Of a stretch of DNA of 64,000 bases, positions 18,721-47,210 are shown piece by piece. The position numbers and the translations under genes are program-made. Within the stretch, counting starts at the first letter, position 1. Every line of letters begins with the position of its first letter. The notes beneath the pieces are model-generated. The model was not told the origin of the DNA, did no database searches, and saw only the letters and a program-made list of their open reading frames with translations. This DNA is from Rhexocercosporidium sp. MPI-PUGE-AT-0058. Lineage: Eukaryota > Ascomycota > Leotiomycetes > Helotiales. The stretch is taken from NCBI GenBank assembly GCA_020746875.1, contig JAGTJL010000026.1, positions 186,001 through 250,000 of the forward strand, read 5' to 3'.

Positions 18721-19089
18721 ATGTACTTTTACGACCTTAAACGATTCGCTTGCGGCTGCAGAATCTCGGAGCCAATATCTCGGTGCGAGAGAACCTCAAT
18801 GTTTGAAGCCCACTGCGGCTCCACCACTCCACATGAAATCGATAATTTGGCAGAAGGTCCCTGTGCTAAGTGTACCCTAAACCTTGGTCAGTTGCCTGCC
18901 CCCCGGAAAACATCTTTCAGCATCCGCCATCCCCTTCCGCGTTCCCTCGAGCTGCACCTTGGGAAGGCTGGTGCTTCACCGACTGGGAAAGCAGATTGTT
19001 CTGGACCGTGTATTCCAAGCCGTATGAGAATCCCATGCCTCATCAGCTTGGAAACTATGCTTGCACTCCTTGAAGAGCTGATCCTCTAA
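18721..19089 (+). CDS. Short Cys-rich N-terminal frame, doubtful gene
   Basis: ATG at 18721. The first ~55 codons read MYFYDLKRFACGCRISEPIS and then CERTSMFEAHCG..PCAKC, the Cys-spaced start seen in many small fungal proteins (M.FY...FACG...). After residue 53 the plausible protein moves to the next frame (PKPWSVACPPENIF.., WEGWCFTDWESRLFWTVYSK, 18870-19073), which meets a TGA at 19071 and then stays open into the HET gene. Either a one-base indel plus a nonsense change has broken a gene whose C-terminal part is the HET domain, or an intron is missed. The 122-codon frame as such is probably not the real product. Confidence 0.35.
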   Translation: MYFYDLKRFACGCRISEPISRCERTSMFEAHCGSTTPHEIDNLAEGPCAKCTLNLGQLPAPRKTSFSIRHPLPRSLELHLGKAGASPTGKADCSGPCIPSRMRIPCLISLETMLALLEELIL

Positions 19090-19172
19090 GCACAACCCTT
19101 GAATTCGACAATAGTGAGCGTTCTTGCACAGAGATAGACTGTATTTTATGGACGGGACACTCTGGGCCGCAT

Positions 19173-20510
19173 TTGAGGAGACATCCATGCAGTACTCAGG
19201 GCTGCTCCCTGGAAGCCGATCATCCTTCGCCCCACCGATTTCTGCTTGGGGTGCGTTTGAGGGAGCTTGCGGACGTCTGGATTGAGGCTGCAAGGGTGGC
19301 TGAAGAGCAGATGAGAACGCTCAATCATGTTGTCCTCGAAGCAATGAGAGCTTCAAGCGATACGAGAGAAATCGAGCATCGAAGACGCACTACTTTCATT
19401 CGCCAGAACGAAAGTCTCGACTGGAAGACTGCGAGCACCGCAGTGCATGAGAGCTCCGGATTGACTTACGGCACTTTGGACCGCTCAGGCCAGCAAATTC
19501 GGCTCTTTGAGCTTCTGCCAGGGACGGGCATGAGAGGTGTCGTGGGCGGATTTTACTGCACAGATTTATCAAAATGTCCTGCATACACGGCGCTCTCATA
19601 TGCTTGGGGAGACCAAACCGACTCGGAAAATATGAAGATCGATGGCGGGACTACAATCAGCGTCCGCAAAAATTTATGGTGGTTTCTTCACCTCCAGCAA
19701 TCGAAAATCACCCGACCAAAGCTTTTCTGGATCGACGCCATGTGCATAAATCAAGACGATGTTCATGAGCGAAATCACCAGGTCGGTCTGATGAAACTGA
19801 TTTATGCTACAGCTGCAGATGTATGCATTTGGCTCGGCCGCGAGTCCGAGGACAGTGATCTTGCCATGGAATTCATTGCAAAGAAAGGTACCTATGGTCT
19901 CCAGGCAAGAGGACCCGGGTTCTACCCTCTCTGGATGAAGAAAGAGGGCCTAGCTCTTGCTGAACTGTGCGATAGACCATACTGGACTCGAATGTGGATC
20001 ATCCAAGAAATTATCCACGCCAAGAAGATCACAGTCTGGTGTGGCGCGAAGGAGTTCAATTGGGCTTCATTCGAAAGCCTCTATCTTAACTTGAAGGCGC
20101 TCGAAGATAGCAGCTGGGCTGCGCATCATTACTTGGTAACGAATGTGCTGCAAAGCTCGGCATGTGTTATGGTCTGGCAGCGAGCACATTGGAGGCACCC
20201 TGAGACCCCAATACCGATTTTGGAAACACTCCTCGAAGTCTTCCACGAATGGAAATGTGCTGATGTGAGGGACAAAGTGTATGCGCTTGTTGGGATGGCG
20301 AATAAAGAGACTTCTATTGTGCCTGATTACGGGAGGTCTCCCAAACAGCTCTATTTTGCAGTGAAGGAGCGTAATCCGAGTTGTGAAGAGAAATTCTTCA
20401 ACCTGTTGTCGCAGGTGTTGGTGCTGCCGGGGAAGGACATGAACTACCGAGTCAAAGTTTGTACGTTCTACTACAAAAGAAGACGCTTCGAAATGTTTAC
20501 ATTTTCATAG
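19173..20510 (+). CDS. HET-domain protein (het-6 type), probably truncated
   Basis: Open frame of 445 codons; it is open upstream to 19074 and the first in-frame ATG is at 19311, so the start is uncertain. HET domain landmarks (numbering from 19173): YTALSYAWGD (138-147), KLFWIDAMCINQDD (183-196), ATAADVCIWLG (212-222), RPYWTRMWIIQEI (268-280), and DVRDKVYALVGMA near the end. This is the het-6 class, which typically runs 600-800 residues, so the C-terminal region is short. The last ~20 residues (after GKDMNYR) look unlike the family, and 110 bp further on sits a dispersed repeat, suggesting loss of the original 3' end. Whether the upstream Cys-rich frame belongs to it is unresolved. Confidence 0.7.
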   Translation: MRRHPCSTQGCSLEADHPSPHRFLLGVRLRELADVWIEAARVAEEQMRTLNHVVLEAMRASSDTREIEHRRRTTFIRQNESLDWKTASTAVHESSGLTYGTLDRSGQQIRLFELLPGTGMRGVVGGFYCTDLSKCPAYTALSYAWGDQTDSENMKIDGGTTISVRKNLWWFLHLQQSKITRPKLFWIDAMCINQDDVHERNHQVGLMKLIYATAADVCIWLGRESEDSDLAMEFIAKKGTYGLQARGPGFYPLWMKKEGLALAELCDRPYWTRMWIIQEIIHAKKITVWCGAKEFNWASFESLYLNLKALEDSSWAAHHYLVTNVLQSSACVMVWQRAHWRHPETPIPILETLLEVFHEWKCADVRDKVYALVGMANKETSIVPDYGRSPKQLYFAVKERNPSCEEKFFNLLSQVLVLPGKDMNYRVKVCTFYYKRRRFEMFTFS

Positions 20511-21744: not shown

Positions 21745-22775
21745 CTATCCAAAAGACTTTCCTGACCCACCAGCAACAGCATTCTTTTCCTTAGGGAATA
21801 GCACAATATCGCCTCCCGTCAAGTGGTTGGACTGAGGAAGCCAAACGCCTGACACCGAAATATAATCCTCGACTTCTTTCTTGATTAGCTCATTAAGATC
21901 ATGCTCAACGTGAATTGGCTTCTTGAGCTTGACAAGATCCTCCAGGCAGATGATTAGCCTGTTGGTGAAGGAGTGCCTGCCAGCTAATGTTGTTTGGGTA
22001 CTACCACACGCTGCGATGATGTTCTAGGCCGAGTACTACGTCAGCAAGTTTGCTCCTTGCATAAATTAGTGGCTCCCAGGGGTGGGAGCTATACCATTTT
22101 CTTGCCTTCATCGACTTGCGTTTCCAATGCGTCGGTAAGATCGACCTTCTGTGGCTCTCCGGAGTAGCAGCAATCAAGGATGACCACGACGTCACAAGTC
22201 GCATATCGAAGCGCCGTCTTGATATGGGTCCAAAAAACACCCAGGCCGCCCTTGGTATGACTGAGCGGCGTTAATTACAGTCACACATACACCCGACGAC
22301 GAGATTCATACCTGTGCAATAAGAGACTGCTTTGACCCTGGACTTTGTGGCGCATACCATGTCCGTTGTAGTAGAACAGCACAAGGTCTTCGCGAGAGAG
22401 CTTGCTGACGTAGTTCCCAATTGAGGAGATGACCTCGCCGGTCAGTGCCTCGGAAGTCTTAGTATCTTGGAGGAGATATTGCTTGACCTCAAAGTCGAAG
22501 TCTGCAATGAGGCGCTTGCCGAGTGAGTTGAACTCGCCTTCAATAGGGATGTCGGTAGCATTCTCCCATCGCACGAAGATGGCGTGGCTTTTCTTGTATG
22601 GTTTGGGCTGTTCGGGGAAGTCACTGTTTTGCTTCAGTGGAGTTTGCTGCGAGATATTGTGTTCAATCTTTCCAGTCAAGACAGGCAGCTATAGATGAAA
22701 ATTAGTGATAATGACTAGAAATGTGATTGGGTGACCTACATTCTCGAAGCCATCGCCCTCCTTTTCGATGTTCAT
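21745..22775 (-). CDS. Orphan caspase-like (C14/metacaspase-like) protease
   Basis: Spliced minus-strand model: 22775-22740, 22688-22312, 22260-22095, 22023-21745 (858 nt, 285 aa). All three introns are GT-AG, 51, 51 and 71 bp. The product has the p20 core of caspase-like cysteine proteases: KSHAIFVRWEN at the first strand, LVLFYYNGHG with the catalytic His at about residue 122, and DVVVILDCCYSG with the catalytic Cys at about 169. These are followed by the NIIAACGS segment and a C-terminal p10-like part (SFTNRLIICLEDL). There is no Pro/Gln-rich prodomain or zinc finger as in type I metacaspases, and at 285 aa it is small. No adaptor or repeat domain is attached, so it is an orphan caspase-like protein. 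It lies 2.4 kb from, and on the same strand as, the helical-protein gene at 25165. A TATAAAG at 22893-22900 is a candidate promoter element. Confidence 0.85.
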
Positions 22776-25164: not shown

Positions 25165-26473
25165 TCACAACAGGGCCTTGATGCTGGGTAATGTACTGAG
25201 CACTCTGAGTTTCTCTTCGACTGCGTACCCTGCTTCGGCAATCTCGTCTGGAATGGGACCACCATACTCTTCAAAGATTTCCCCCTTGATCATCTGCACC
25301 TCGTCGGTAAGACGAGCGTCAATTAATGCATCACTGCACATCTCCAACAAGCCCGCTACAAATTCATCTTTCATATAGGCAGTGCTCTTGGTGACGAGGG
25401 CATCACCTTGGACTTCTCGGACTTTAAGGTCGAGCTTAGCAGAAGCGTCTTTGAGAACACTGAATTGGTTTTGGAGCATGATACAGCGAGACTCAGTAAT
25501 TGCAGCATCCGTCTGCAGCGATGGAATCTCTGCCTGGAGCTGCATTTGTGCGGATCGTCTGGCTTCAAGTGTGTTTCTGGACTGGCAGAATTGTATCAAC
25601 TGCTCCTGTGCTGTTCTCAGGGATGACACCGCATCCGTGTACCGACGGCGAGCGTCGTCCAGATCACCGTGCAAGTTGAAAGGGTCCAAAGGTCCCTCGT
25701 TAACCAGATTTCCAATTCCTAGTGTCAAGATGGAAAACTTCGGCGAGTGTCAGCCTATTTTGTACAATACAGCAAGAGAAGGGAACCTTACACCGATGTC
25801 GCTGACCATCGCTGCGGCTTCGGACTCTGCAATCTTCCCCTCCAAAGATCGAACTGCATCTGATTGATTTTGAAGAGACTGTTGCATGTTTCGGCAGCTT
25901 GCCTCGGTGGTGTTGATTTGGTTTTGAACCGAGTTGAGTTCATTGATGCTTTGTTCCATCATCAGACTGATCTTCTGCATCAGAGGAGCAATCCCGGCGT
26001 TTTGGATTTCCATGACCTGCAAGAATTATTAGCAACAAGTAATGACAGGATCAGAATATTTGTCAAATTACCTGGCTGTGGAAAGTTCCGATTTGGCGCA
26101 GCCCTTCTTCTGCTCTGGCCTGTACGTCTGCAAACGCTAACACAGCAGGTTCGATGGCTTGCTTTTTGCCAGTCGTTTTCTTGTCTTCATCGTCAACGTC
26201 ACGTTCGTCGTAGGCTCCGCGAATGTATACTGCAATTTTGTAGACTTTGGTCATTGCCATCTCCAACTTGTCGATGGTTTCACGAGCGCCTGATGCGACA
26301 GCGTCGTTGAGACCAGTCGAGATCTCATTTAGCTTGTTCCCAAGTGATGTCAGCTGCATTTGAATGTCTGCAGCCTCAGATGTAGGGCCATTCAGCTGCT
26401 GGATACCTGAAAGGTTGACCATGTTGGGAAGTGCCGCTTGCAGCAATGCAACGAATTGTAGGAAATCCGCCAT
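25165..26473 (-). CDS. Helical coiled-coil protein, 392 aa (unknown function)
   Basis: Spliced minus-strand model: 26473-26072, 26016-25794, 25718-25165 (1,179 nt). Introns are GT-AG, 55 and 75 bp. The start ATG begins MADFLQFVALLQAALPNM, an amphipathic stretch. The protein is predicted almost wholly helical, with long heptad-like runs (ISLMMEQSINELNSVQNQIN; CRNMQQSLQNQSDAVRSLEG; LEARRSAQMQLQAEIPSLQT), Ala/Gln/Glu/Ser-rich and low in Pro. There is no signal peptide or clear membrane helix beyond the mildly hydrophobic N-terminus and a NAGIAPLM turn. I do not recognise a named family. It is divergent from the 772 aa helical gene at 27296 with 822 bp between start codons, so the two probably share a promoter region and function together. 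Long helical bundles of this kind occur in structural proteins and also in alpha-helical pore-formers; only structure prediction could decide. Confidence 0.75.
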
Positions 26474-27295
26474 TCTGGATTGCTGCTGTACTGTTCGAAT
26501 AATGGTGCGGTGAGGAAACCAAGGATAACCAGATGCTAGTCAAGGATGAAGTGCTGTTCGCTGGGAATGCAGCTTAGATGAAGCCAAAATTATCTTCCAG
26601 TACCATAGTGAGATCCTCTGTTAAACTTATATGATCGGCCAATATCTTCGAAGGCCCAAGTTCACTGTGTAAACTTTGGGCAAGAAGAAGGTGCGGGACT
26701 AACTGAAGACTCGCCACATCTAGACATTTGTTTAGAGAGTTCTTACCCAATGCTTTCGAAAGTCACACCGCTTTGAATGTCTCAGCTGGCTTTGCATATA
26801 TTAGCTAACCGTACACTCGCACTATCGAAGTGACGTAGACTTTCTGTCCTGTTCTTTCGCAACTTAGCTTGATATGCAAACTCATTAAGGAGACGAGCTG
26901 CATGCTTGTGGCTTGCGTAGAACGGTCTGGGGGCACATCCACAACATGATTTACTCGAATTCTACATTGCAGGACATGATGACCCTAGGTTAGTACCGAC
27001 TTCAGCTGTTCTCACACCACTGTAAGAGGGGAAATCAACTCTATTTAGCAGAATAGACCAAAGCTACCCAAGCAGAATCGTAAAACACAGAGAATAATGC
27101 TTTTATAATCTAACCAAATGCTGAATAAGGCCTATGTAGGTGTCTTGTGTGTGTGGGGGGGGGGGGGGGGGCAACGGGTTTTTCTATATAAACCATCTAT
27201 TTCGTCCCTTCTCCATATTCATCAACTTGCACTCTCCGATCACATCATCACATTACCTTTAAACATTCATCTGATCTTTCAAGCCGATCTTAACA
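26474..27295. promoter_or_regulatory. Divergent promoter region of the two helical genes
   Basis: 822 bp between the two start codons. Contains no open gene. The side toward 27296 carries a G17 tract and a TATA box (see separate entry). A pyrimidine-rich leader ending in a short run of CAT/CAC repeats follows up to the ATG at 27296, typical of fungal core promoters. Confidence 0.6.
27155..27192 (+). promoter_or_regulatory. G17 homopolymer next to TATA box
   Basis: GTGTGTGT runs into 17 consecutive G (27155-27171). The TATATAAA box at 27185-27192 lies 13 bp beyond it and about 104 bp before the start codon of the 772 aa gene. A G-run of this length is prone to slippage and quadruplex formation and would change the promoter spacing when its length changes. 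An effect on expression is inference. Confidence 0.55.
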
Positions 27296-30200
27296 ATGCC
27301 TTCCAATGCTAAGGACCTGGGAGTGGTGCTCCAAGCACAGCAGGCCCGTGATCTGGCACCCAATGTTACGGACCAAGTTGTTGGGGAGATGAAAAGCTCC
27401 CTGATCTTCCAGTACAGCTGGGAAGAACTCTTGCAATCCGCACCTACTGCCATTAGCTGCATGGGTGCGTGTCTGGCAGCGAGTTCGTCGCCCAAGGCTG
27501 TTGTTACGCTCACACCTCCAAAAGACAAGGGCTTTCTATACTTGAGGTACGAGATCTAGTACCAGGCAGGATTATTAGCATGACTGACCCGCGTAATTAG
27601 ATACACATCCATACAAGCCAATCTTGTCGAATGTGCAAACATGGGACGATTCGCATTCATTGAAGCGGAGAATGGTATGGGTATTATCATGGGTCTCTCT
27701 AAGGCCGTAGATGGCAAGGTGAGCTACCCCTTCTACATTACAGCCATCTGTTCATTGAGCTAATTTCTTTCAGATCAACCAAATTGTTGATATCATAGGT
27801 CACCCTAGAGATGCAAAGACGATGTTGAAGCCTCAGCTCAACACTTTGAAGTCTGCCGCACAGCAGTGCCTTGAAACCTCTCAAGCCATGGACAAGAAGT
27901 TCGAGGAGTGGTTACTGTACGTCTGCGAGATGCACGCAGCTTGTGTGGAACAAGAGAACACAACCCGAGATCAGGTACTGAGCAACGAAGTCTGTCTCGC
28001 TGCAGAGCAGACTCGCCTTGAATATCAGAAAGAGGCCGTTTACGAAGCTAAAAAAGCATCCGACACCATGGGAGAACAAATCAAGCTTGCATCAGAGGCT
28101 TTCAAGAAGGCGTCTGATGAGTTTCCTACTGGGTAAGCACGCTCTGCCTCTCGCGTGCCCTTATCCTCGAGCGAACACTAATGCCTCCCTTAATAGATGG
28201 GACTTGATGGGGCAACAGATCGTTGGAGACCTAGCTGGTGCATTGACCACGGGGTTGAACGCAGCAATTCCAGCCCTCTTAGATAACTTGAATCCAATGG
28301 CCAAGATAAAAACTGGCGCAAGTATCGTGGGATCGTTTGTCAACCCCTCGAAGGAGACTGGTGCTCCTGCTGCAAATGGGAACGGCGCTTCCACAACGGC
28401 TCCAGCAAGCAACGGTGCTCAACCCCAAAGTCTTCCTCCACAGGCTGCTGACCCAGCGTACACCTATGTACTAAAGATGAACGCTTTTCTGTCAACTCTG
28501 TATGTTATTCTCAATGGCAAGGACGGAAATATCAATTGGGACATGGCCGCAACGGGCGACGAATCCAAACAAGGAGCCAAGTCGAGCATCAAGTTCCTTC
28601 AAACGATGATGCAAGACCATACGGAACGGTTCAACTCTGTCGCCACTGCGGAGGAGCCAAGCCAAACACTCAAGACCATTCTAGAGGTTTCTTCTCGAGT
28701 AAGTCGTACTCAACAATTCAAAAATACCTCAATTGACAAGGCATGACAGGTTTCTAAAGAGCTTCAAGGAGAAGTTGAGAAGTCTAAAAGCCCCCAGCAC
28801 ACGTGGCCGACCAAAGAATCCGAAGTGGTCAAGAAATGGCAATCAGACTTTGCAACACAATATCAAAAGGCAAACACCCTCATGGCAACTGCGAGATCGC
28901 TCCCTGGCGCCGCCGCGAACGGGGTAGGTAAAATTTGTAGGATGAGGTATAGTTCATGGCTGATCAACCCTTCTAGATACCACTTCGGGCTCCTCTCGAT
29001 CCTGCGGTACAGACTGCTCAAATCAACGCCAAAACAGCGCAGGCTCAAGCCGTCCTTGAATCAGCTAAGAACCGCCTAACCACGACTCAGGATATGTTAA
29101 GCACGACTCAAACGAATTATGGCAAGGCGACTGAGCTTCTTGTTTCTCAACAAAATAAGCTGGGTTCCGTTCAGGCAGAGCTGACCCGACTCACGGCATC
29201 CAATTTGACTTTGGTAAGTAGCCTACAATGCAACCCAGTGCTAATCATGGCTAATGGTAATCAAAATTGCAGACGGAGATCAAGGCAATTCTCATCCAGT
29301 GCATCAAACTCATCATCAACTTGAAGCAACAGATCACCAATCTTGTCCGCTTCTTCAAGGCTATTGCCGCGGTCATTGGTATGTCAATCAAGTACCACGT
29401 CGACCCCTTTCTTGAGACTATCAAAGCAATCGTTGCTGCTGATGGCACCGATCCCAACAAGGACCTCAAGATCGGAGACTACACCCTCACCGACTTCCAA
29501 GCCTCGGTAAGTTCAAAGCTTTAATCTGTTTTCTTTGCAATAATCCAAGTATTAACCCATGCCAAAGCAAGTTTACAGTGCCGCCGTCACTATTCGTTCC
29601 TACTTTGGCGTGTTTGGCGACATCGCTAGCATGTGGTGCGAGCTTTCCATTGCAAACATCATGCCTGGTTTGAAGCTCTGCGATGAGATTTCAGTCACAG
29701 CGGACGAGAAAGATCCCGGTCAGATGAGAAAGAAGGTTACCGACTTGGAAAGATGGTCAAAGGACGCGTCCGCCCGCGTCTACAAGTTGGCACATGAAGT
29801 ATGCCCCGTTTCTTTACACATGTAATGATCACTGGCACGCTGAGGTGACTATGGTACAATAGAATAGCTAGAGAAGCGCTGTAGACTCGCTGGTAATATT
29901 TGAATTATACAGAAGCTAATTACTAAGGAAGGAAGATTACTTCTTCCCCCTCACTGTTTTTATAAGGGCAGTGATTACGTAATTAGCGCTAAAAGCATAA
30001 ACTATTATAATATCTTCCTTCTTATTCACTTTTGTCCTAAAAGTAAGAATATACTATAGCCCTTAGCCAGCGCTACACTAGCGATTCGCTAACGAACTAA
30101 ATTTTCTACTATTTATTTTAAAAATGAATTCTAAAAAGAATGAAGTAAGGTAAAAGCCACTAATAGGAGGGGCCTAGCGCCTACTAAGTATATAATACTT

Positions 30201-33200
30201 CTCCCTCTCTATAACCTTTCTTAATTAATAATAATAATTATAGCAAATTATAAGTTATAACTACCCCTCGATCTTAATAATGTCGTCTTTTAATAAGTAC
30301 TTAGCCGGCGGTTCTTTTAGCTATAAGCGTAAAAGTAAAATACTTAGCTTCACCGCGATTAACGCTAGCAATACCCCGACTAAACGCCAGCGAACCTTAA
30401 TAACCTCTTTAAAGATAACTAATATTAGCGATTAAGATAATAATAATAAGGATTTTAAGGATAACGTCTAATCTTTTTAACGAACTCTGTTTAAAGAAAA
30501 GAAAGATACGCGTATTTAATCTTTAAGTAAAGTTATTATGAATGAGAGCGACGTTCGTTAAGAGCTATGCCTGCGTTACGCCGGCGAGGTCTAAGAGTTC
30601 CTTAATCTTTAATACTTTAATAACCTTAACTTATTTATTATAAAGTATCTAAATTGCTGCAAAAATGGTAAGCCGTGTGAGTTAATAAGTTAAATTTTTT
30701 CTACTTATTAGCGAGGCATAGGCTAATAATCGGCGAAGTCCCGGCTAAGTTAAAATCATTTTTTAACGATTTCTTTAAAGCTGCTTCTTAATTCAATTCT
30801 AGTAAGATTAAGTAAATCAATCTTAATATTACTTAGTTTATCTTTAACTAAGAAAAGCGTCGCGTTAATCATTTTATTAAAGTTTTTAATATTAAAGCTT
30901 AGAAGTCTTTATAAAAGCTTATAATGTCCTTAACTGAAGAGCTTTATACTAGCGTTATATCGGCAATTAACAGGCTACGCGGCGCGCTAATCTTAATTCT
31001 TTTTTAAAAATTCGAGGACTTAAAGGAAAGTAATGCTGAGCTTATAATTAAGATTTCCGGACTCCGAAAAGTAAGTAAACTTAATATTCGCTAATAAGTT
31101 TCTTATTAATCTCCGGCGAAGGACTTCCGAAAGGTTTATTTTGACTCCTTTAAGGACGGTATAATTAAAGACCTTAAGGCCGGAGCTATTAAGGATAGTG
31201 GCTATATTAATGCTACTAAGAACTTAAGTAATAAAGATGAGTTTATTATTATTACTTAAAAATAAATCTAAGGTTTTTACTTAACGATTTATTGGCGAAA
31301 GACTAACGTTTACCCGGCGAAGCACTTTAATTTTCTGATTTTCTTAAGTATTACGTTCTTATTATAACGCAAATAAATAATATAAGCTCTTTTTTCCTTT
31401 AAGTATTATTATTTAAATTATAATATTTAATACGCTTTTAAAACTACAAAACCTTATAAATAAAAATAAAAAAGTATATAATATTATAATATATCTTTAG
31501 CGAGTCGTCGGCGTAACCCTGGCGACTCTCCCTCGAACCTTTCGAAGAAGCAAGAAGTTATAAGCTTATCTTCGCCGGCGCTTCGCCTTCTTTTCCGTAG
31601 CGTTTCGTCCTTTTAATAACTTAATTAACTCTTGGAAATTAATAAGGTTTTTTATTAATTCTTAAGAATTATACGCTAAGCTAAATCCTTTTTATTTAAT
31701 AAAGTATTATTCTTTACTTTTAATTACTCGTCGATCTAAAAGAGTCTTAATAGCTTATTATTCTTTTCTGTTAACGAGGTTAAATTGAACGACTTCCGAC
31801 GATTCGCCGGGCCTTTGCTAATACGGCTCTAGTAATAATATATAAAAGACGTTATATAAACGATTATATTTAAGAGGTAATTCTAGCTTATACGCTTATT
31901 TTCCGATTCTTTTAGTAATCTTGAAAGGCCTTAGAAATTAATAATCCAGCTTCTTATTTAAACGGATTATCTTAATATTCCTTAATAAGAGCAAGACTTA
32001 TTATTTAATTTTAAATTCTATAAGGTAATAGTTCTTATTATATTATTTCGCCTAGTTTTCTTTAGTTCTTCGCTAGCTAGTTTTTAACTTTTAGCGTTTC
32101 TTAATAATCTCTTTTATTTATTCTTTAGTAATCGGTATCTCCCTTTTTATAGAATTATCCTCGATTTCCTAACGAGAATCCAGCGATATACCGTATTTAA
32201 TCTTATTCGGAGTTATTCTAATAAACTTATAGTAAGTATTTATATACGCGAACTTCGCTAAGAGTAAGAGATTTATTTAATCGTCTTATAAATAATAAAT
32301 AAAATACTTTAGCCACGCTTTTAGGGCTTAATTTTGTTGTTTTATTTATCCGTTTATTTATAAGTAAAACGCCGTCGAAAAGCTTCTCGTCATTCGTAAA
32401 TAAAAGTAAAGTTCCGTTTAAAATTTTAAAGTAAATACAGAGCTTCTGTTTATAATAATCGTTATAAGTAGCTCGTGATCCTTAAACTAATAATTAATAA
32501 ACAAGCGTATTAAAAGCGGTATATTAATAGTTTTTAAGCACGGGATATATTTAATATCTTTAGTAAATTTATTAATAATTATTAATAAATTATTAAAGAC
32601 TTTACTTATAATATTACTTTTATAAAGTATTAAATTTGTAATAAAGTTTATTATAATTAATTTAAATAGTTTGCTAAGCTAGCTCGGCGCTTATATTTCG
32701 CTAACTACTTTCTTACGTTTTGCTTTTATTTTTTAATAAATATTATAAGTCTTAACGTATTTTTTAATATTTATTAATATCTTCGGCTAAAAATACTTCC
32801 GTTAAATAAACTTTAATATCTTTTTATAATTAAAATAGCTTGTAATTAAATTATTATAATATATTTTTATAATTTCACTACGAACAGTATTATTTTAAAA
32901 GACGTAAGCTATTCGCCGGTATTTTAGTAAATTATCGCTATCGACATTCTAATCTAAATCCCCGGTATTCTGTAATCTGGCTCGCTTTTTAATAGCTAAG
33001 GCGTCCTTTTTCTATAACTTTAAAAATAGCAAAAAAAGCGAGTTCGATTCAGGGTTTGCCGTTTCGGCTCTTATAATTTTCGCTATAAGAAACCGTAATA
33101 TAATATATTTATAATTACGCTAGCCAGCGTTTTGCCTCTCGCCGGTTTCACGCAAGAAGTTATTTATGCTTTTAAATAAATTCTAGGAATTATTAAGTTA

Positions 33201-36200
33201 TATAAAAATATACTGCTAATTAGGCGTAAAAATTACTTCTATAGCCTCGGTCGACGTATTTATTATAATATTATCGCCGGCAAGTTAAGGAATATAAGTC
33301 AATCGGTATAATATATTATTGTCTTTTTGCCGGATGCTTTCCGTCGTATAATTAGTTATACTAAGCACGCGAATTAACTTATTCTAAAATACGCTTTATA
33401 ATTTATTTTATAAGATAAAAAATATAATATTCTCCTTATTCTTCGCTGACTTATAATCAGGCTTACGTAAGAGTTTATTTACGGGATTATTCTTTCTTTT
33501 TTTATAAACTATCACAAAGTCATACTTAAACAGCTCTAGAGCTTATCTAACTTATCGCCGGCTTAATACTATCGTCGTTATAAAATAACGGAGGTTATTA
33601 TAGTTTATTAATACTTTAATAAAAGCTAAATTACCTTTTAAATAATGCCTTTAATATACGAAGCACTTAACGATCGTAAAGAGTTCCTGATTATATACTT
33701 TATAATTCAGCTTAGTAACATTTAACTTCCTGCTAAAAAATATAATAAAATATTATACGGCCTTTTCTTTATCTCTTACCGGCTACTCGCTGAGTTAAGA
33801 GAAGATTCCTGCAATTGCGAATCTAAACGCATCAGTTTTTAGCCTTCTTAGCTTATTAAAGTTAAAATATATAAGAAAAAGAGCTGACGTAAATATATCT
33901 TTTAATACGTTAAAAGCCTCTTTCTTAATAATATCTTAATAAAAAGTAAAAGTAAGTTATCTTTTCTTCTTACTTCCCGTTAAACTTATTATTAGCCGAG
34001 TAATAATTAAGAAGTTTACGATAAAGCGTTAGTAAAAGTTAATAAAGCTAATAAAAACTTAAATATTTTTAATACTTTTAAGCTTTAGTTAATCCTTAAT
34101 AGTATTTATTTAGCTTTATTTTATTAATACTTTAATAAGTAATATTATATAACTTAAAAAGTCTATACTTTAAGTGTTAAAGGAGTATTTCGATAGCTTA
34201 ACGAAGAGATTTACTTATTATAATCTTTTAAAGACTTAACGAACGTAGTTCTCGTGCTGAAATAAATCCGTTAAATATATTAAAATATTATTAAAATAAA
34301 CGATATAAATAATATTTACGAGTCTTACTAATATATCGTTAATATATGCTTAAAATATCGCCGGCGCATTAGACAGTCCGAACGATATTATTTAATACTC
34401 GTAGTACTCATAACGAGTGCGGAATATAATTTTCTACTCGTTTTCTTCTTTAATTTTAATATAATAGTATATATTTTATAAATCTAAATTAATGAAAATC
34501 TTCGCGTCTCGGAGTCTATTTAACGTCTCGCTAATTAATAATAAAGAATATTAATCCTTAATTATAATCTAATTTAAAGCCTTGTAATCGACACATAATC
34601 GAAGGCTATTATTTTTTTTTATTATAAATAAAATAAGAGCTTTAATTAAGCTCTTGCTTTTTCTTATTTATCTTTTAGCTTCGGAGGATTTAAAGTAGTT
34701 CTGGAGAACCTTTAGTTCCGTCTTAAAAAAGTTATAAATTAAAAAGTATAAGAGCTTCGCACCCGGTTCTAGGTCGATAGCATACTAACGACCTTATAGC
34801 GGAAGCAGCTCGTTCCCTCTCTTTTCTAAAAAAACGTCCTTAAATCTATAATATTATTATAAAATAGTAAGTATATCGTCGGCGTTTAGTAAGCGCGCTA
34901 TATTAAGGCTAAGTATTATAATATACGCGGACGACTCTTTCTTATTAATAACTTATATAAATTCTTTTAATTTTATAATATTAAAGTTATAAGTATTATT
35001 TAATCGGTATAAGTATTTTTATTATTTAATTTTAAAACTAATCTAAGAGTTGATTTCTTCTAGTTAAAGCTATTTTAAAATCAGGTCTATATCCGGTATA
35101 TTAATGACTTTTAGCTAAAGTATATTTAATTTTATTTATTTAAATATATTTATAATCTCTACTTAAGCGAGAATTATATTATAAATAATACTTTTATTAC
35201 CAGAAAGGGCCTAAAATATCTTTAGTTCTTCGTCGGTGAATTATAAGTCATATTCCTTTATTATAAGCCTCGAGATAAAATTGTCTTCCGCTTTATTATT
35301 AATTAAGGCTATTAGCGTCTTCTATTTTTTACTTAATAAGATCTTCAGTTAGATTTTTATTTTTTTACTTGTCGATCTTAATAAAGACGTAAAAGCTATT
35401 ATAAGTCAGGCGCTTTTCTGGCGTTTGTCTTTAGACTCGCCGATATCAGTCTCTAAGTATTCATTAGCGTAATAGCCGAGTTCATGGCATAAATAGCATT
35501 CGACTTTCGACTTATAACTTCCTTTCTTACTTTTTTTAATTAGGATTTTATTTAAATTAGTTTTATTAAATCGCTTTAGCCGGGAATTATCTCGCCTTTC
35601 GCTAACTCTTTATGAAAGCTTACGAAAAAGTTTTTCTTTTTTATTCTTTAGTTTTCTTTACTTTTTATTATTCCTTTTCGTTAAATTATAAGTTTTTTAA
35701 AGAGCGATAGCGGAAATAACTTTTTTACGGATTTATAATCTATTAGCCTGTCTACTTTCGACGATCTTCTGGCGAGCTTTAAGCCGAATTTTATTAAAGA
35801 GAATATCTTATAATTAGCGCTTTATAAAAGACTCGAGGTATTCCTTTAATCCTTTTAAGTAATTAATAAATTCACGAATAAGCTGGCTAATTCTTTGTTA
35901 AGCTGTTTTATAAGCCTAATAATTAGCTATTCTTCTTAAGACGGGGAATAGCTAGAGATTCTTTAAAAACTCCTTGTAATTTTTTTAGATTATTATATTA
36001 AGTTTCTTTAAGGTTTATTTCTTAAATTTTTCTTAAGTATTTGCCGGTTCTTTACGAAGCAGTATTACCGCTTATTTAATCTTAATTATATTAGTCGGGA
36101 ATCCTTTGAAATTATAATTAAAAATACGGTTATAAGCTTATAAATACTCTATGAGTTTTCGGTAGCTCTTTTCTTTATATTCTAAGGGGATTATATATTT

Positions 36201-37086
36201 GCCTTTCTTTCGGCGTAAAGCCTGAGGTTCGTCGGCTATTATTAAGAGGCTCTTTGCATTATCTCCGTTGTTCGTAAGAGTCTTTAATCTAGTAAGTTAA
36301 AGGAGCTGAGCTCTCGTTGCTACTTTAGGAGAGTATTACGTGAAATCGTCGCCGTATATCCGACGATACTTAACGATAAGGCTATCGAGGATATTGTTCC
36401 GCTTTTTAAGAGCCCGAAGTTGCTCTTGCATCGCGGTAATATTATTTGCTAGCGTATCTCTAGCGATTCCCTGGTGTCCCGGGGTATTCGATTGTTGTCC
36501 TTATCGGCTTAAGGCTACTATTAATAATCCTCTAATTTAAACTATTATATAATAATCAGGCTAACGGTAAGAGAATAATAATTAAAATATAATGATCACT
36601 GGCACGCTAAGGTGATTATGGCATAATAGAATAACTAAAGAAGCGCTGTAGACTCGCTGGTAATATTTGAATTATATAAAAGCTAATTGCTAAGGAGGGA
36701 AGATTACCTTTTCCCCCTTACTGTCTTTATGAGGGCAGTGATTACGCAATCAGCGCTAAGAGCACAGACCATTACAACACAAGTTAAAGCTAGACTTGGA
36801 CTAACTAGTACCTCAAGAAACAACAGCAGATTATGGGAGGCATGAGTGACCGCATCGACCAGATCAAGCAGACTACAACCAAAATCGAGGCACCACCCGA
36901 GCCAACTCGGAAGGCCATCACTCAGGGAACAGAGACGACAAAGCAAGCAGCTCTGGAGTACATCAAGGAGAAGGAAAAGGCAGCACCGCTGGCTCGGTTT
37001 GGTAAGTGAAAACGGGGTGATATATTTCCCCTGGAACTGATGCTAACTTTTCCTTAGAAGTAACTGGTGGTGATGACGAAGAGTAG
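27296..37086 (+). CDS. Helical protein, 772 aa, split by a retrotransposon in intron 8
   Basis: Spliced model: 27296-27546, 27601-27718, 27774-28132, 28197-28698, 28750-28923, 28977-29213, 29273-29506, 29568-29798, 36818-37001, 37058-37086 (2,319 nt). All introns are GT-AG and about 50-65 bp except intron 8, which holds a 6,956 bp Ty3/gypsy element. Without the element and one target duplication that intron would be 58 bp. The product is mostly helical: helices and coiled coil (residues ~90-240), a hydrophobic Gly/Ala/Leu-rich segment (IVGDLAGALTTGLNAAIPAL, ~250-275), a Pro/Ala/Gln linker (~297-330), more coiled coil, and a second hydrophobic stretch (~552-588). Coiled coil around a central hydrophobic hairpin is the plan of alpha-helical pore-formers; resemblance only, no family recognised. 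Exon 9 may begin at 36809. The 7 kb intron is far beyond normal fungal size, so correct splicing is doubtful and the gene may be disrupted, yet no exon carries a lesion. Confidence 0.75.
29821..30009 (-). repeat. LTR (left copy) of the gypsy element
   Basis: 189 bp, starting TGTAATGATCACTGGCACGC. Its end TATTATA corresponds to CATTACA in the right copy, a RIP-type change at the terminal CA. In the element's own direction this is the 3' LTR. Confidence 0.92.
30280..31260 (+). pseudogene. Antisense reading frame inside the gypsy element
   Basis: An ATG at 30280 opens a plus-strand frame (MSSFNKYLAGGSFSYKRKSK, then TPTKRQRTL) against the direction of gag-pol. Protein-like segments continue past RIP stops, such as LRYAGEV, YLNCCKNGKPCE and KVYFDSFKDGIIKDLKAGAI, up to about 31260. 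It lies between the end of pol and the 3' LTR. Some LTR retroelements carry antisense ORFs in this place, and a nested insertion is the other explanation. No family recognised. Confidence 0.4.
31500..35400 (-). pseudogene. Decayed gypsy pol (RT, RNase H, integrase)
   Basis: Minus strand. RT: RLRDAKIFINLDL near 34520, FGLSNAPAIF at 34355-34384, and the active site reads YFNNIL at 34283-34298 where the family has YFDDIL. RNase H: YNQELFTIVKCF then NNLRYFITT near 33580-33720. Integrase: INFITNL at 32631-32655, then INKFTKDIKYIPC near 32550, where the family has DF and VD, so catalytic Asp residues are Asn. All fit G-to-A RIP changes. Protease was not delineated. Ends are approximate. Confidence 0.8.
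35466..36530 (-). pseudogene. Decayed gypsy gag with zinc knuckle
   Basis: Minus strand. Capsid-like segments include TAMQEQLRALKKRNNILDS, then KYRRIYGDDFT and ALRRKKGKYI. The zinc knuckle at 35466-35515 reads CYLCHELGYYANEY, in which the His and last Cys of CX2CX4HX4C have both become Tyr, each explained by a single RIP-type transition. Start not fixed. Confidence 0.75.
36588..36776 (-). repeat. LTR (right copy) of the gypsy element
   Basis: 189 bp, starting TATAATGATCACTGG (TG changed to TA) and ending CATTACA. In the element's own direction this is the 5' LTR. Confidence 0.92.
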
Positions 37087-39184: not shown

Positions 39185-41614
39185 ATGGCTACCGATACTC
39201 CCCACAAGCAAGAGTTCCGCATCCGCGATCTTTCGACTCGAAGCGTCCTCCTCTTCCCCTCCCGAGCGCAGGTCATCCGCGACATCAAGAACATCACTCT
39301 GCACCCAGGCGCCAACCAAATCGTCATTGATGGACTGTCGCCCCTCGTCGACGAGCACTCCATCAAAGTTGAAGGAACAGGTTCAGCAACCATCACAGAT
39401 GTCACCGTTGACCTCCTGCCCAACCGTGAAGTCTATGAGGATGTCTACCCCTCTGACTCTGAAGACGAGGATGAGTCCGAGTCGGAGGATTCAGATGCCG
39501 AGGTCGAACAGATGAAAATCATCAATGAGCGGATCAAGAACCTGCATGTCCGACTTCTGAATGAGCAGGAGAAGATCAACTCTGCTGCGGACCGGTTGAG
39601 GATTTGCGATAATTTCGGCAAGAGTGTCGAGAAGGAACGACCCGCCCCCAACGATCTCGAGGAGCTCATTTCCGCGTATCAAACCGAGCGGAAGAAGATC
39701 TACCAGGATCATGAAGCCGCGACTGGTACGGTAGAGGAGGTCAGAGAGGATATCCGGAAGACGGAGAAACAGAAGATGAAATTGGCCAAAGCTCTGGTGA
39801 AGGCTAATGAGAAGGCTGAGAAGGAGAAGGCGAAGGAGCGAGAGAAGAAGTTGAGAAAGAAAGCTGAGGTTGCTAAGGAGAAGCAGAGAATCAAGGCCGA
39901 GAGGGAGTCGTTCTGGCCGAAGAAGGTGTATTGTATCACCATCAACCTGGAGCCTTCCAGCCTTACGCCTGCTTCGTCTCGGAGAAGCTCAATCGATGGC
40001 GATACGGTTGTCAATCTCGCCACTTCGGAATTCCACGAGGCTTCTAATACACCACTCAAGAATGGCGAGATCTCACTGTCGTTGTCGTACATTACACATG
40101 GCGCTTCGTGGGCTCCGCGATATGATCTCAGTCTCAACACTGTCAAGTGCACTGGTCTGCTGGAGTACGGTGCGGAACTGAAGAATACCACATCTGAGAC
40201 CTGGCACGATGCCAAAGTCATTCTCTCAACCTCCCAGACGACATTCAGTGGTCTCAGCGAGACTATCCCAATCCTTCTACCATGGCACGTTCGTCTCGAA
40301 AAAGGCGCTCGGAATGCAGACAGTTCTCTGTTCAGCCAACATGAGCTTTCAGCCAAGCAGAAAGAATGGAACCAGACTAAGGGTGATCAACACCAAAAGC
40401 CTCGATGGGAGCTATTCGGACGAGACGACTCTTCGAGAGACGTATGGCTGGCTCAGCAGAACCAAGTTGAAGCCAAGAAGAAGTCTGAACGCCTTTACCA
40501 GGCTCAGAATATTCTCAAACGAACCAATAATCTTACGCCGCAGATGTTCGGTTCGTCTGCCGTACCCCCTCCTCCTGCCGCCGCTTCGTTTGGGGGCATG
40601 GCTGGAGTATCCCGTCATCGTCAAGCAGCTGACTACGAACCGGCTGATTCACGTAGGAGTCACAGTCGTTTCCTAGACATGGAGGCGGAGGTAGATGATC
40701 TGGGGTCTGACAATGAAGCGATGGGCTTTGGTACATTCGACAATGGACCAGCTGCTCCAAAGTCTCTGACATTTGAAGAGGGTGCTTGGGAGGAGACTGG
40801 GATGACTACCACATACGATGTTCCCGGTACTAAGACCTTGCATCCCAACAACTCGACCATCAAGCACAAGATCGCCAAGATCGAATTCAAGAATATCGTC
40901 TTCTCCCACATTGTCGTCGGCAAGCTCAGACAGGTCGCTTTCCTAAAGGCTCGTCTTCGAAACGCATCTAAGATCACATTGCTGAAGGGACCTCTGGGAC
41001 TGACTCTTGACGGATCATTCCTCGGCCAAGCAACATTCCCTCGCTGCTCAGCCGGCGAATCCTTTTCCCTACCACTCGGCGTCGATCCCGCCATCAACAT
41101 CGCCTATCCCAAACCCACCGTCCGTCGCAGCCAAACCGGCATCTTCACCAAGGAGGACAGCAACGTATTTACACGCACCATAATTATTACAAACACCAAG
41201 CATAACGCCCCTATCGAAATCACGGTCATTGACCAAGTCCCCGTCTCCGAAGACGAGCGCCTGAAGATCGAGATCGCTAACCCGAGAGGTTTGAAGGTCG
41301 GGGGAGAGGGTGTCCGGACTGGCCAGAGTGCCTTCGCAACTTCTACTACCGCAACTTCTGCTGGAAATGTCAAGGGTACGGCGAAGGATGTTCGTGCCAG
41401 CGTTTATGGCGCTGATGGGAAGGATGTTGGTCAGGGCGGGAAGTGGGGGAGTGCAATTGCGACAACGAAGAAGGGCGGGGAGGTTATTTGGAATGTCAAG
41501 TTAAATCCTGGACAGGGTGTTAGGTTGGCTTTGGAGTATGAGGCCACGTTCCCTGGTGGAGAGAGGGTTGTTGGTGTTCCGGTAACGAGGAATCAGAATG
41601 GGTTATTTGATTAG
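39185..41614 (+). CDS. DUF4140/DUF4139 family protein (mucoidy inhibitor A-like)
   Basis: Single exon, 809 aa from the ATG at 39185 (context GTCATGG); the frame is open a further 24 codons upstream without an ATG. N-terminal DUF4140 (about residues 12-85, with SVLLFPSRAQVIRDIKN and GANQIVIDGLSP). A strongly acidic Ser/Asp/Glu stretch follows at 89-106. Then comes a long charged coiled coil (about 107-235, Lys/Glu-rich) and DUF4139 to the C-terminus, with LSLSYITHGASWAPRYDLSL and a closing beta-rich part (VIWNVKLNPGQGVRLALEYE). The family is widespread in bacteria and eukaryotes (MuiA-like, worm F37C4.5-like); biochemical function is unknown. Length and domain order are normal. An ordinary, probably conserved gene that marks this end of the variable block. 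Confidence 0.92.
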   Translation: MATDTPHKQEFRIRDLSTRSVLLFPSRAQVIRDIKNITLHPGANQIVIDGLSPLVDEHSIKVEGTGSATITDVTVDLLPNREVYEDVYPSDSEDEDESESEDSDAEVEQMKIINERIKNLHVRLLNEQEKINSAADRLRICDNFGKSVEKERPAPNDLEELISAYQTERKKIYQDHEAATGTVEEVREDIRKTEKQKMKLAKALVKANEKAEKEKAKEREKKLRKKAEVAKEKQRIKAERESFWPKKVYCITINLEPSSLTPASSRRSSIDGDTVVNLATSEFHEASNTPLKNGEISLSLSYITHGASWAPRYDLSLNTVKCTGLLEYGAELKNTTSETWHDAKVILSTSQTTFSGLSETIPILLPWHVRLEKGARNADSSLFSQHELSAKQKEWNQTKGDQHQKPRWELFGRDDSSRDVWLAQQNQVEAKKKSERLYQAQNILKRTNNLTPQMFGSSAVPPPPAAASFGGMAGVSRHRQAADYEPADSRRSHSRFLDMEAEVDDLGSDNEAMGFGTFDNGPAAPKSLTFEEGAWEETGMTTTYDVPGTKTLHPNNSTIKHKIAKIEFKNIVFSHIVVGKLRQVAFLKARLRNASKITLLKGPLGLTLDGSFLGQATFPRCSAGESFSLPLGVDPAINIAYPKPTVRRSQTGIFTKEDSNVFTRTIIITNTKHNAPIEITVIDQVPVSEDERLKIEIANPRGLKVGGEGVRTGQSAFATSTTATSAGNVKGTAKDVRASVYGADGKDVGQGGKWGSAIATTKKGGEVIWNVKLNPGQGVRLALEYEATFPGGERVVGVPVTRNQNGLFD

Positions 41615-42865: not shown

Positions 42866-45541
42866 TCAAACAAGCCGAATTGACAAAGGTTTATCTTGGG
42901 GCCGGTCAGGGTCAAAGACTCGTTTCTGACCTGCTTGGTCATAACGTGGGATTTTAGTCAATCCAACCCTCCGGTACTGACTACCTTGCCTCGGATCCTG
43001 TTGCAACAAGAGGCAAATCAAGTAGCCGTTGGCATCATGTCGAGCTGGTAAACAGTGCATCCTACCTCCTTGGCCTAGGACATCTGTATCATCCTGAGGG
43101 CTATCCAAGTACACGTTACTATATTCATCCTCCAACTTGTGAGAATCTCCTACCGGCTCGCGGGGAGTTCCTTTCAAATCCCAATAGTAACGGGTTCCGC
43201 TTTGGTCGATGCGTTTTTCCAGAATAATTCCCTTTACAACACCTAAAAGCTCAATGAAACACCCTTCCTTGACCAAGCCAAACTTATCAGCGCCTTTGTC
43301 CTGAAACATTTCGAACCTCTCAATCGAGATCAGAAGGTTGTCAGTTGTAAACTCGCCGTATGTTATGCCCCTCTCGGCATCAATAGCAGCCCACGAGAAA
43401 GATGGGGATCGGTAGACTGGCGGACGTGATGATGGAAACGAGAATTTGCCGTGCTCAAACACAGGATCCAAGCGCCAGAGGAGCTGACTCTCTAAATACT
43501 CACTCCATAATCCTGCGACGTAGGCAACATTGAGGAGGTTGCCTGACATAAGTTTCGCAATTCCTGAGAGTGCAATCAACTTGTCGCCGGGGTTCGTGAG
43601 TCTAGTCTTCGAGTATCTTTCGACTATTCTTTTCCAACTATTGGGAATATCATAATCAGTATTGCCACATGAATTAAATAAGATTAAATGAGTGTGTCTA
43701 AATGGCTTATAGGGTATTTTTGGTAATCTCAAAACACCTGGGGCGTTGTGATGAAGAAAAAGTGGCTTGAAGAAACCTACTGATTGTACGTAGCTAGACC
43801 TCCCTCGAGATACCCGGATGAGGAAGTGTTTTCTTGAGAGCCCGGAAGAATGCGAGGAACGAAACTTTTCAGTCTCTCGGCACGCTCTATTTCTCCCGCT
43901 CTAAGTCGGAAGCTTGCAATGCCGTCGCGAAATGACTCCGAGGCATCAACCTTTCGGCATTCCCATGCAATCTGGTCTTGGCAGAAATGGAGAACTCTTG
44001 GGGCCATTAATCTCTCCTGTAGTACCCACGCTCGCCTGTTTACGGGAGCATCGTCGATATTTCGTTCCCAGAACGACAGATCAATTATCTTGCATCTTTG
44101 TATCAGCTCGTCTGAGCTGATACCTGGAATCCCCTCAGTGTTGAGGTTGATCTCATCCTCCCACAGAAGGTGTGGCTCCCTTGGAAGAAATAGGCCTTTG
44201 GTACTATCTGTTGCTGCGGTTGCCGAGATATTGCAGTATGAGTTGTTGTAGATTAAGTGCATCTGCGCGGATTCCTTCAGCCAGTCCGACTTCTCCGTCT
44301 CAGTTGGCTTGTTCGGTTGGGCAGCTTAGGCAACTATTAGCAATGAGTTTATCTCAACAACACGGAGGCCGGAAGGGAAGAGAGAATTCTACTCGCCTTG
44401 TATGATACACAAGGAGTCGATCCAAATGTATCGTACCTGACCTGGCTTATTACCCAGACGGCGCGCAAAACGTATGGCATTCTGAAAAGTCTTTGGTAAT
44501 TCCTTCAGCTTAACTCCTCTCTTGAAATCAGCCATCTTGTCTTCGGTGAGTTTCGAAAACGATGCTCCACCCCAGCAATGACTCAGCGTCACGTAGAAGC
44601 CCTGCATCATATTGCGCTCCTCCTTGGTGGTGACCAAACGTATATACTCAGAGTCTTCTTTGCTGTCTTCTCGCCTTTTTCTCTCGGGGTCTCCTGCAAT
44701 TTGTGGGGGGTCGTCGCGGATCTCTTTGTGGCCTGGTATTTTGACCATGCTCCCCAGGTCAATCAGCCTGCTTGGGTACCATGGTTGCAGGCCTTCGGAC
44801 GGCTCACCCGGGCAGTCAGGATGCTCCTCACTTGTGCAACGATTGATCCACTTGGAGTGTGTTAACTCTTCTCTCATGGAGTCGAAACACAAAAACCCCC
44901 GAAAACGTTGCAAGAATGTAGAATCGCAAGGTATAGAAACGACGACCAAGAATATGCACTCACTGTTTTAGCAACCTCAAGAACTTCGTCTGATGACGTA
45001 CTTCTAGAGAACGGTGTATGAAGCGGGCTGCTTGATCGATCTCCTGTATTGGTGTCAAAAGATCCGCACAGAAGAATGTCGTCAACTAATTACCTAACTG
45101 CTCCAAAACAAATGTTCCCACCCTCTCGGCGTCCCGTAACTTGAAGTCAAGACGGTAGATTTTTGGGACGAACGTGTCTACTACCCTATTTGACTCTTCT
45201 TCAAGTCCAGGAAGCTCGGAGAGGTATGCACTAATAAATGCAGCCCGATCTTTCGTATTAATTGTGTTGGGTCGAAGCAATCCTGCCGACATCCATCTTT
45301 CAAAGAATTTGTACAATCCGCTTAGAGTGTTGATACGATTGTCCTGTGGTTTCAAACCTTTCTTCTGTACAAGAGATAATTCACCCAGTATGCTCCGGCA
45401 TATGCAACAGCTAACTGGTTTCGCAGCCGACTCTCTCAATGCGACTTCATCAGGTTGGTGGTCAAAGTGCAAGTCAAACGTACCTCGCCATTGACTTCCC
45501 TGATGTCCTCTCAAGACGCCATAACACACAGCACATAACAT
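42866..45541 (-). CDS. HET-domain protein, five exons
   Basis: Spliced minus-strand model: 45541-45094, 45043-44964, 44850-44397, 44324-43781, 43637-42866 (2,298 nt, 765 aa), a usual length for the class. It starts MLCAVCYGVLRGHQGSQW, with CCICRSILGEL next, typical of this HET subgroup. The HET domain reads FYVTLSHCWGG, then RYIWIDSLCIIQ, then YNNSYCNISATAA, then NRRAWVLQERLMAPRVLHFC, and continues to WKRIVERYSKTRLTNPGDKL and SFSWAAIDAERG. Intron 3 appears to use a GC donor (CAAG|GCGAGT at 44397/44396), needed to keep the CIIQ motif and the downstream frame. The other introns are GT-AG, 50, 113 and 143 bp. Intact. Predicted to act in non-self recognition and cell death; partner unknown. Confidence 0.87.
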
Positions 45542-46331: not shown

Positions 46332-47210
46332 ATGCCGTTCCAGCTCGAAGATTTTGAAGATCCTGTTGAAGTAATCTTCGAAACTGGGACAGACATCGAA
46401 CCAAATCAACTGGTTAAATTCCCTGCGTTCATCACCTGGCGGAAGACACTCAAGACTTCCCTCGAAGGCCAAAAAGATCCCAAACACCCCTTCCACGAAA
46501 ACCCATATAAGCTCAGATCCGTTACGATCCAATCTGTGGACTGGTTTGGAAGAGACACTCCTGACAGCAATAGATTCATAGGCTTTGTAAAGCTCAAAGC
46601 AGATGTCCGGACTGGGAGGGATAGAAATGGAAAAATTTCTTCGCTTCCCGGAATCGCTTTTCTACGAGGAGGCAGTGTTGCCATGCTCATGATTCTTCGA
46701 CCAAGCGATTCAAATACAGAGAGATGGGTCATCATGACTGAACAGCCACGCATACCATCAGGAAGCCTCCGCTTCTTGGAGATCCCAGCCGGGATGATTG
46801 ATGACAACAAAACATTTAGTGGTGCGGCAGCGAAAGAAATTCGGGAGGAGACGGGCCTCACAGTACACGAAGACGAATTTCAGGACTTAATAAAGCTTGC
46901 TCTGGGCCAAATCGAGGGGTTGGATTCCAAGGAGGATCTGCAGATTGGAATGTATCCGAGCCCAGGTGGCTGCGACGAGTTCATCGCAATCTTTCTGTGG
47001 GAGAAAGTGCTTGATAGACAGGAGATCGAGTCGTTGAAAGGGAGGTTGAGTGGTAAGAGGACGGGAGAATCTGAGATGATAACGGTCCGAATTCTGCCTT
47101 ATGAAGATCTCTGGAAGGTTGGGGCTAGAGATGCAAAAACACTAGCGGCTTGGTCTCTGTATGAAGCACTGAAGAGGTCAAGGACCTTACGTGACACAAA
47201 ATCTTGGTAG
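46332..47210 (+). CDS. Nudix hydrolase, ADP-sugar diphosphatase-like, intronless
   Basis: Single exon, 292 aa from the ATG at 46332. The frame is open 44 codons further upstream, but homology with the neighbouring Nudix paralogue begins after this ATG. Nudix box at residues 154-177: GMIDDNKTFSGAAAKEIREE followed by TGL, with the metal-binding REEXGL-type core intact (KEIREETGL). The PGG(C/S)DE loop at about 217 (YPSPGGCDEFIAIFLWEK) and the LEIPAGM lead-in fit the ADP-ribose/ADP-sugar pyrophosphatase branch. Likely reaction: hydrolysis of a nucleoside diphosphate sugar to NMP and sugar phosphate; the substrate cannot be read from sequence. It faces its paralogue tail to tail, 362 bp apart. Confidence 0.9.
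   Translation: MPFQLEDFEDPVEVIFETGTDIEPNQLVKFPAFITWRKTLKTSLEGQKDPKHPFHENPYKLRSVTIQSVDWFGRDTPDSNRFIGFVKLKADVRTGRDRNGKISSLPGIAFLRGGSVAMLMILRPSDSNTERWVIMTEQPRIPSGSLRFLEIPAGMIDDNKTFSGAAAKEIREETGLTVHEDEFQDLIKLALGQIEGLDSKEDLQIGMYPSPGGCDEFIAIFLWEKVLDRQEIESLKGRLSGKRTGESEMITVRILPYEDLWKVGARDAKTLAAWSLYEALKRSRTLRDTKSW

Follow-up and report, generated by a model that had tools for sequence, protein, structure and literature searches.

Do the two divergently transcribed genes at positions 25165..37086 of a 64,000-nucleotide stretch of Rhexocercosporidium sp. MPI-PUGE-AT-0058 (contig JAGTJL010000026.1; the whole stretch is called the window here) encode a fungal pore-forming system, or ordinary coiled-coil proteins? 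A first-pass annotation of the window had described both products as long coiled coils of unknown family and had noted in the larger the layout of alpha-helical pore-formers. In the present analysis, the predicted fold of the larger protein, encoded by gene B, is most like the components of ClyA-type toxins, and the model of the smaller protein, encoded by gene A, points weakly the same way. It is considered an even chance that A and B together form a two-gene fungal ClyA-type alpha-helical pore-forming system, as a member of that group or as its analogue. Judged by predicted fold, the two proteins would work like ClyA-type alpha-pore-formers and may belong among them.

The divergent gene pair

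The pair is made up of gene A on the minus strand and gene B on the plus strand, and both are open and intron-bearing. The features of the pair are as follows.

25165..26473, minus strand: gene A, exons 26072-26473, 25792-26016, and 25165-25737, 399 aa (gene model and homologues P0030, P0031, and P0032)
26474..27295: intergenic region of 822 bp between the start codons of A and B, divergent and common to both genes
27296..29798, plus strand: gene B exons 1-8, 702 stop-free codons, encoding the first helical arm, the large head insert, the return arm, and the greater part of the C-terminal helices
28198..29039, plus strand, approximate limits: head-insert stretch of gene B, residues about 244-489, containing two introns (Neurospora crassa model, alignment, and hydrophobicity)
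29799..36817, plus strand: penultimate intron of gene B, about 7.0 kb, enlarged by a long terminal repeat (LTR) element; donor and acceptor sides read separately, the acceptor set from homologue P0001
36818-37001 and 37058-37086, plus strand: last two exons of gene B, encoding the C-terminal helix and stop; the translation aligns to the C-terminus of P0001 from residue 700

The outer coordinates and the 822 bp between the two ATGs in the first-pass annotation are both exact in these gene models. The splice acceptor of gene A was fixed by comparison with P0030, a protein recorded from Rhexocercosporidium sp. MPI-PUGE-AT-0058, to which residues 18-399 of the A protein are identical at 382 of 382 positions. 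Gene B encodes approximately 772 aa in two coding blocks separated by the 7.0 kb intron; the first block contains seven GT-AG introns of 51-64 bp each. A run of 17 G is present at 27155-27171, inside the intergenic region. A and B are real conserved genes, because B has 29 homologous protein clusters (E <1e-130) and A has close homologues. A second copy of A or B was not found in the strain's own genome.

Predicted fold of the B protein

ClyA-type components have a five-helix-bundle tail in common (PMC6162564; also the available part of PMC6086661) and share 15-45% similarity among themselves (PMC6162564). The AlphaFold2 model of the N. crassa homologue of B is good (predicted template modelling score, pTM, 0.79) and has such a tail. 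In comparisons of this model made with VIA-align, in which the rankings cover the listed entries and a family absent from the lists may still match, entries 1-13 were all ClyA-type toxin components (XaxA, HblB, AhlB, NheA, and others). The aligned lengths were 196-242 for these components, as against 113 and 135 for catenin and vinculin, which ranked lower. A best match to an ordinary cytoskeletal or trafficking coiled coil had been set in the first-pass annotation as the outcome that would speak against a pore-former, and the predicted fold of B has no such best match.

On this model, B looks like a ClyA frame in which an unusually large helical insert forms the head and separates two long helices. 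The insert has hydrophobic helices around IVGDLAGALTTGLNAAIP and YTYVLKMNAFLSTLYVIL, plus a variable linker; its limits are an interpretive reading of the alignment, of hydrophobicity, and of where the N. crassa model places its secondary-structure elements. The hydrophobic stretches previously placed between the coiled-coil arms of the larger protein are present in the insert, and in the hydrophobicity profile the arms themselves are also hydrophobic in places. Canonical transmembrane helices are absent from A and B (best 19-residue mean hydropathy 1.54 in each), and no secretion-signal-like start was seen by eye in B or its homologues.

The A protein and its hydrophobic apex

The model of A, built from three sequences, is weak (predicted local distance difference test, pLDDT, 59.5; pTM 0.44) and contains a helix at 90-197, a loop, and a helix at 211-294. 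With this model, Foldseek placed MakA at rank 1 and SmhB, SmhB, and AhlB at ranks 3-5, with E of 0.0095 to 0.03 and none <0.001. VIA-align placed YaxAB, SmhB, MakA, and two AhlB entries on top, with 260-267 residues aligned.

Between the two long helices, the apex of A is the hydrophobic segment FSILTLGIGNLV. Independently of the fold model, the hydrophobic segment AAAMVSDIGFSILTLGIG has a mean hydrophobicity <H> of 0.62, against 0.33 for the next-best segment, and the apex core FS-LT-GIGNL is common to P0030, P0031, and P0032. Comparable toxin components of Aeromonas have single stretches of 22-23 hydrophobic residues (available part of PMC6602965). As anatomy, a candidate membrane-active element can be picked out at the tip between long helices, the hydrophobic helices of the head insert in B and the apex in A. 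The N-terminus of A, MADFLQFVALLQAALPNMV, has a mean hydropathy of 1.29; that of the Rhynchosporium A protein differs (mean -0.95).

The pore-former layout proposed earlier is hence supported at the level of fold for B, as a protein of unknown family, and weakly for A, by Foldseek and VIA-align on a poor model.

Sequence-family searches

Neither A, B, nor any of 19 B homologues reached a curated Pfam or NCBIfam cut-off among the listed matches, which had E no higher than 1 (in the scan of the 19 homologues, 25 of 27 families were listed). Among the listed matches there was no ClyA-type curated family model for any of these proteins, and no gasdermin or HeLo-type Pfam profile for A and B. Conserved-domain databases contain ClyA-like superfamily models. 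The PDB sequence searches with A and B gave no convincing match, the PDB profile search gave 18 weak rows (best E 0.11), and PADLOC on three proteins gave weak rows only. The homologue, Pfam, NCBIfam, and PDB searches with A used a 392 aa version that is without part of the apex; P0030 and P0031, with the full apex included, were profile-scanned instead of the corrected 399 aa protein. A and B have no recognisable relation to each other (hhalign probability 0.5%). The description of both proteins as being of unknown family holds on these searches.

Relatives and distribution

The first protein searches for A and B scored the 7994 candidates with most shared words, exact shared words being needed. 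The B homologues range in identity from 86% to 38%; they are named hypothetical or uncharacterized at most and have no precomputed Pfam domain. Their sources are Rhynchosporium and Oculimacula among Leotiomycetes; Fusarium, Neurospora, Copromyces, Neoarthrinium, Clonostachys, Xylariales, and others among Sordariomycetes; and the agarics Agrocybe, Phlegmacium, and Mycena. One further homologue is a metagenome protein. No relative of B was found in a bacterial and archaeal collection of 84,980 species, based on 30 matches to two short patterns, a search that distant relatives could escape.

A midpoint-rooted tree of 29 rows, made up of the window piece and all 29 clusters except P0028, groups the window protein with Rhynchosporium and Oculimacula (support 100/100). 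The three agarics form a single group (support 92/92, branch unstarred). A midpoint-rooted tree cannot give the agaric origin, so no claim is made that B was exchanged horizontally between Ascomycota and agarics. Branches are very long for P0029 of Sordaria brevicollis (1.09) and for proteins of the Fusarium solani group (1.22); these copies are probably fast-evolving or divergent.

For A, three homologous proteins were identified: P0030, likely the strain's own, RSE6_05065 of Rhynchosporium secalis, and P0032 (216 aa). A further search through the conserved C-terminal half of A, with 1337 candidates, gave the same three proteins and none new. In Rhynchosporium, RSE6_05064 (B) and RSE6_05065 (A) are on contigs of equal size (22,465), and because their locus tags are consecutive, the adjacency of A and B is kept in a second genus. 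To this extent the two genes stay together elsewhere, but none of the other 28 B clusters could be given an A partner; the word-based search could miss faster-evolving partners in these. P0032, which is A-like and has no stated source organism, might belong to one of these.

A retrotransposon within gene B

The large intron of gene B contains an element that the first-pass annotation had overlooked.

29821..36776: LTR retrotransposon mutated by repeat-induced point mutation (RIP), 6,956 bp, GC 29%; LTRs at 29821-30009 and 36588-36776

The element is bordered by an ACACA direct repeat (29816-29820 and 36777-36781), so that the target duplication is intact. The two 189 bp LTRs are equal at 166 of 189 positions, and all 23 differences are transitions, with 0 transversions. 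The dinucleotide indices of the element are 1.38 for TpA/ApT and 0.41 for (CpA+TpG)/(ApC+GpT), values that are typical of RIP; the same indices are 0.43-0.66 and 1.20-1.52 in A, B, and the next gene. Both coding blocks of B remain open. Gene B may be poorly expressed in this strain because the retrotransposon enlarges its penultimate intron. No B protein from the Rhexocercosporidium strain was among the B homologues found in the protein search; perhaps the annotation broke at the element. Other AT-rich blocks span roughly 1-8 kb and 54-64 kb of the window, and an open reading frame (ORF) at 57635-58258 on the minus strand, gag-like by eye, sits in one of them.

The HET and caspase-like neighbourhood

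Four genes around the pair are of HET-domain or caspase-like type.

14329-16218, plus strand: HET-domain gene (profile search)
19074-20507, plus strand: HET-domain gene (profile search)
21748..22688, minus strand: caspase-like gene, partial, with FYYNGHG and VILDCCYSGE motifs, beside gene A
42866..44967, minus strand: third HET-domain gene; the HET domain is in ORF 44392-44967, and ORFs were joined down to 42866 by eye

The three HET-domain genes (E 2e-12, 7e-30, and 8e-14) are within about 31 kb around the A-B pair. Genome-wide, there were 526 first-look HET candidates in 62.7 Mb, spread over 60 contigs, and all of the 150 that were scored were matches. On this basis a 64 kb stretch should contain about 0.54 of them, and the Poisson chance of at least three is 0.017. 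The caspase-like gene scores 28.2 bits against Pfam Peptidase_C14 (cut-off 21.4) with a splice model chosen by eye, and 16.8 bits, under the cut-off, as an unspliced ORF; it was not among the nine places of an exon-by-exon genome search. This gene is a possible regulator, and with the three HET-domain genes it gives a hint of regulated cell death. Approximately 80% of fungal gasdermin genes are clustered with their own protease genes, and fungal defence islands including HET genes have been proposed (both from the available part of PMC10197012).

Elsewhere in the neighbourhood, a DUF4140/DUF4139 protein of 809 aa (39185-41614, plus strand) is encoded downstream of B, and there are two facing NUDIX-domain genes (46332-47207, plus strand; 47646-48404, minus strand). 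The protein at 51392-52471 (plus strand) has several C2H2 zinc-finger matches, and by eye similar Cys/His-rich frames continue to about 53.7 kb.

Comparison with known systems

A binary system like XaxAB would have its two components encoded by neighbouring genes; A and B adjoin in the window and, by consecutive tags, in Rhynchosporium, but the other 28 B clusters have no assigned A, and the partnership is putative. XaxAB and YaxAB are bacterial, whereas A and B are fungal, intron-bearing, and divergently transcribed. There is no detectable sequence similarity, and the fungal B, which has a head insert of approximately 240 residues, is roughly double the length. Compared with the tripartite Hbl, Nhe, Ahl, Smh, and Mak toxins, A and B again are not bacterial and have no sequence similarity, and no third component was recognised in the window.

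Among fungal cell-death proteins, those of the HET-S/HeLo type are helical. They are alike in having a fungal host, here with HET genes nearby, but A and B are without a HeLo-type Pfam match. With fungal gasdermins (RCD-1 and HET-Q1) and their clustered proteases, the locus has in common a putative pore-former near a caspase-related gene (available part of PMC10197012). A and B differ from gasdermins in being modelled as almost all-helical and in matching no gasdermin profile, and the caspase-like gene at this locus gave a C14-type match rather than being identified as a CHAT protease. Given the models, the likeliest reading is that the pair is a novel fungal version of the ClyA-type pore-former.

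Alternative explanations

Several results weigh against a ClyA-type system. Catenin, at rank 14 in the B comparison, has a Z score tied with the lowest ClyA-type entry of the top 13; plain Foldseek with the B model gave no clean match, so that the toxin result comes from VIA-align; and the helical background was high in the VIA-align comparisons of both B and A. For the A model, rank 2 in Foldseek was a microtubule-doublet protein, and in VIA-align unrelated helical proteins were at most 1 Z unit from the top ClyA-type entries. The HET neighbourhood was also rejected as proof of a role in cell death, since HET genes are common in this genome. The fold results could be a helical-bundle coincidence in ordinary intracellular coiled coils of scaffold, cytoskeletal, or vesicle type, a reading that accords with the weak sub-threshold coiled-coil matches (Spc24, ADIP, and Filament for A; BLOC1S3 and CCDC93 for P0031). 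It is considered improbable, in that the whole top 13 for B came from one toxin superfamily, over far more residues than catenin or vinculin, and the very long B branches in some species would be unlike most housekeeping scaffolds.

It is also conceivable, if unlikely, that B alone is a ClyA-type pore-former, as ClyA and Cry6Aa are, and that A is a lineage-specific regulator, chaperone, or inhibitor. B is widespread, with A in three records; the two are unrelated in profile comparison; and A is half the size of B. Conversely, the A model also ranks ClyA-type pores first, its hydrophobic apex is conserved, and the gene order is maintained in Rhynchosporium. A different target for the same fold, a cytoplasmic toxin stored against fungivores such as nematodes and acting after ingestion, is likewise rather improbable. 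Cry6Aa is nematicidal, which counts for such a toxin, as do the lack of a visible secretion signal in B and its occurrence in three agarics. Cytoplasmic storage is moreover the pattern of mushroom defence lectins (available part of PMC13324453), and Cry6Aa is a one-component ClyA-type toxin (PMC6162564). The neighbours, however, are HET and caspase-like genes, and no lectin or other targeting domain was over cut-off in the family scans.

If A and B do form a ClyA-type system, they would be soluble proteins stored inside the fungal cell. A trigger, perhaps proteolytic and perhaps acting via the neighbouring caspase-like gene, would make the apex of A and the hydrophobic elements in the head of B insert into a membrane, and the proteins would oligomerise to a pore, with death of the cell as the result. 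Such a system would most probably serve in regulated cell death or in defence. The gene neighbourhood would rather suggest self-killing than action against animals, and a cytoplasmic location fits both. The fullest version of this proposal is put forward only tentatively: a giant-headed B and a small partner A with a hydrophobic apex, in a HET and caspase-like neighbourhood, would join gasdermins and HeLo proteins as a third kind of executioner in fungal cell death.

Significance

In the literature examined, ClyA-type pore-formers are bacterial toxins. The stem 'fung' is absent from the main text of a review of the ClyA type (PMC6162564), and in the available part of another review it occurs once, about the aerolysin family (PMC9558359). 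No fungal ClyA-type protein was named in the literature found, most subscription papers being outside the search. If the interpretation is true, fungal cell death or defence would gain a class of pore-former, a conserved ClyA-fold family with members in Neurospora, Fusarium, and mushrooms. Such a family would also raise the question of whether it originated from an old shared fold, by transfer between kingdoms, or by convergence.
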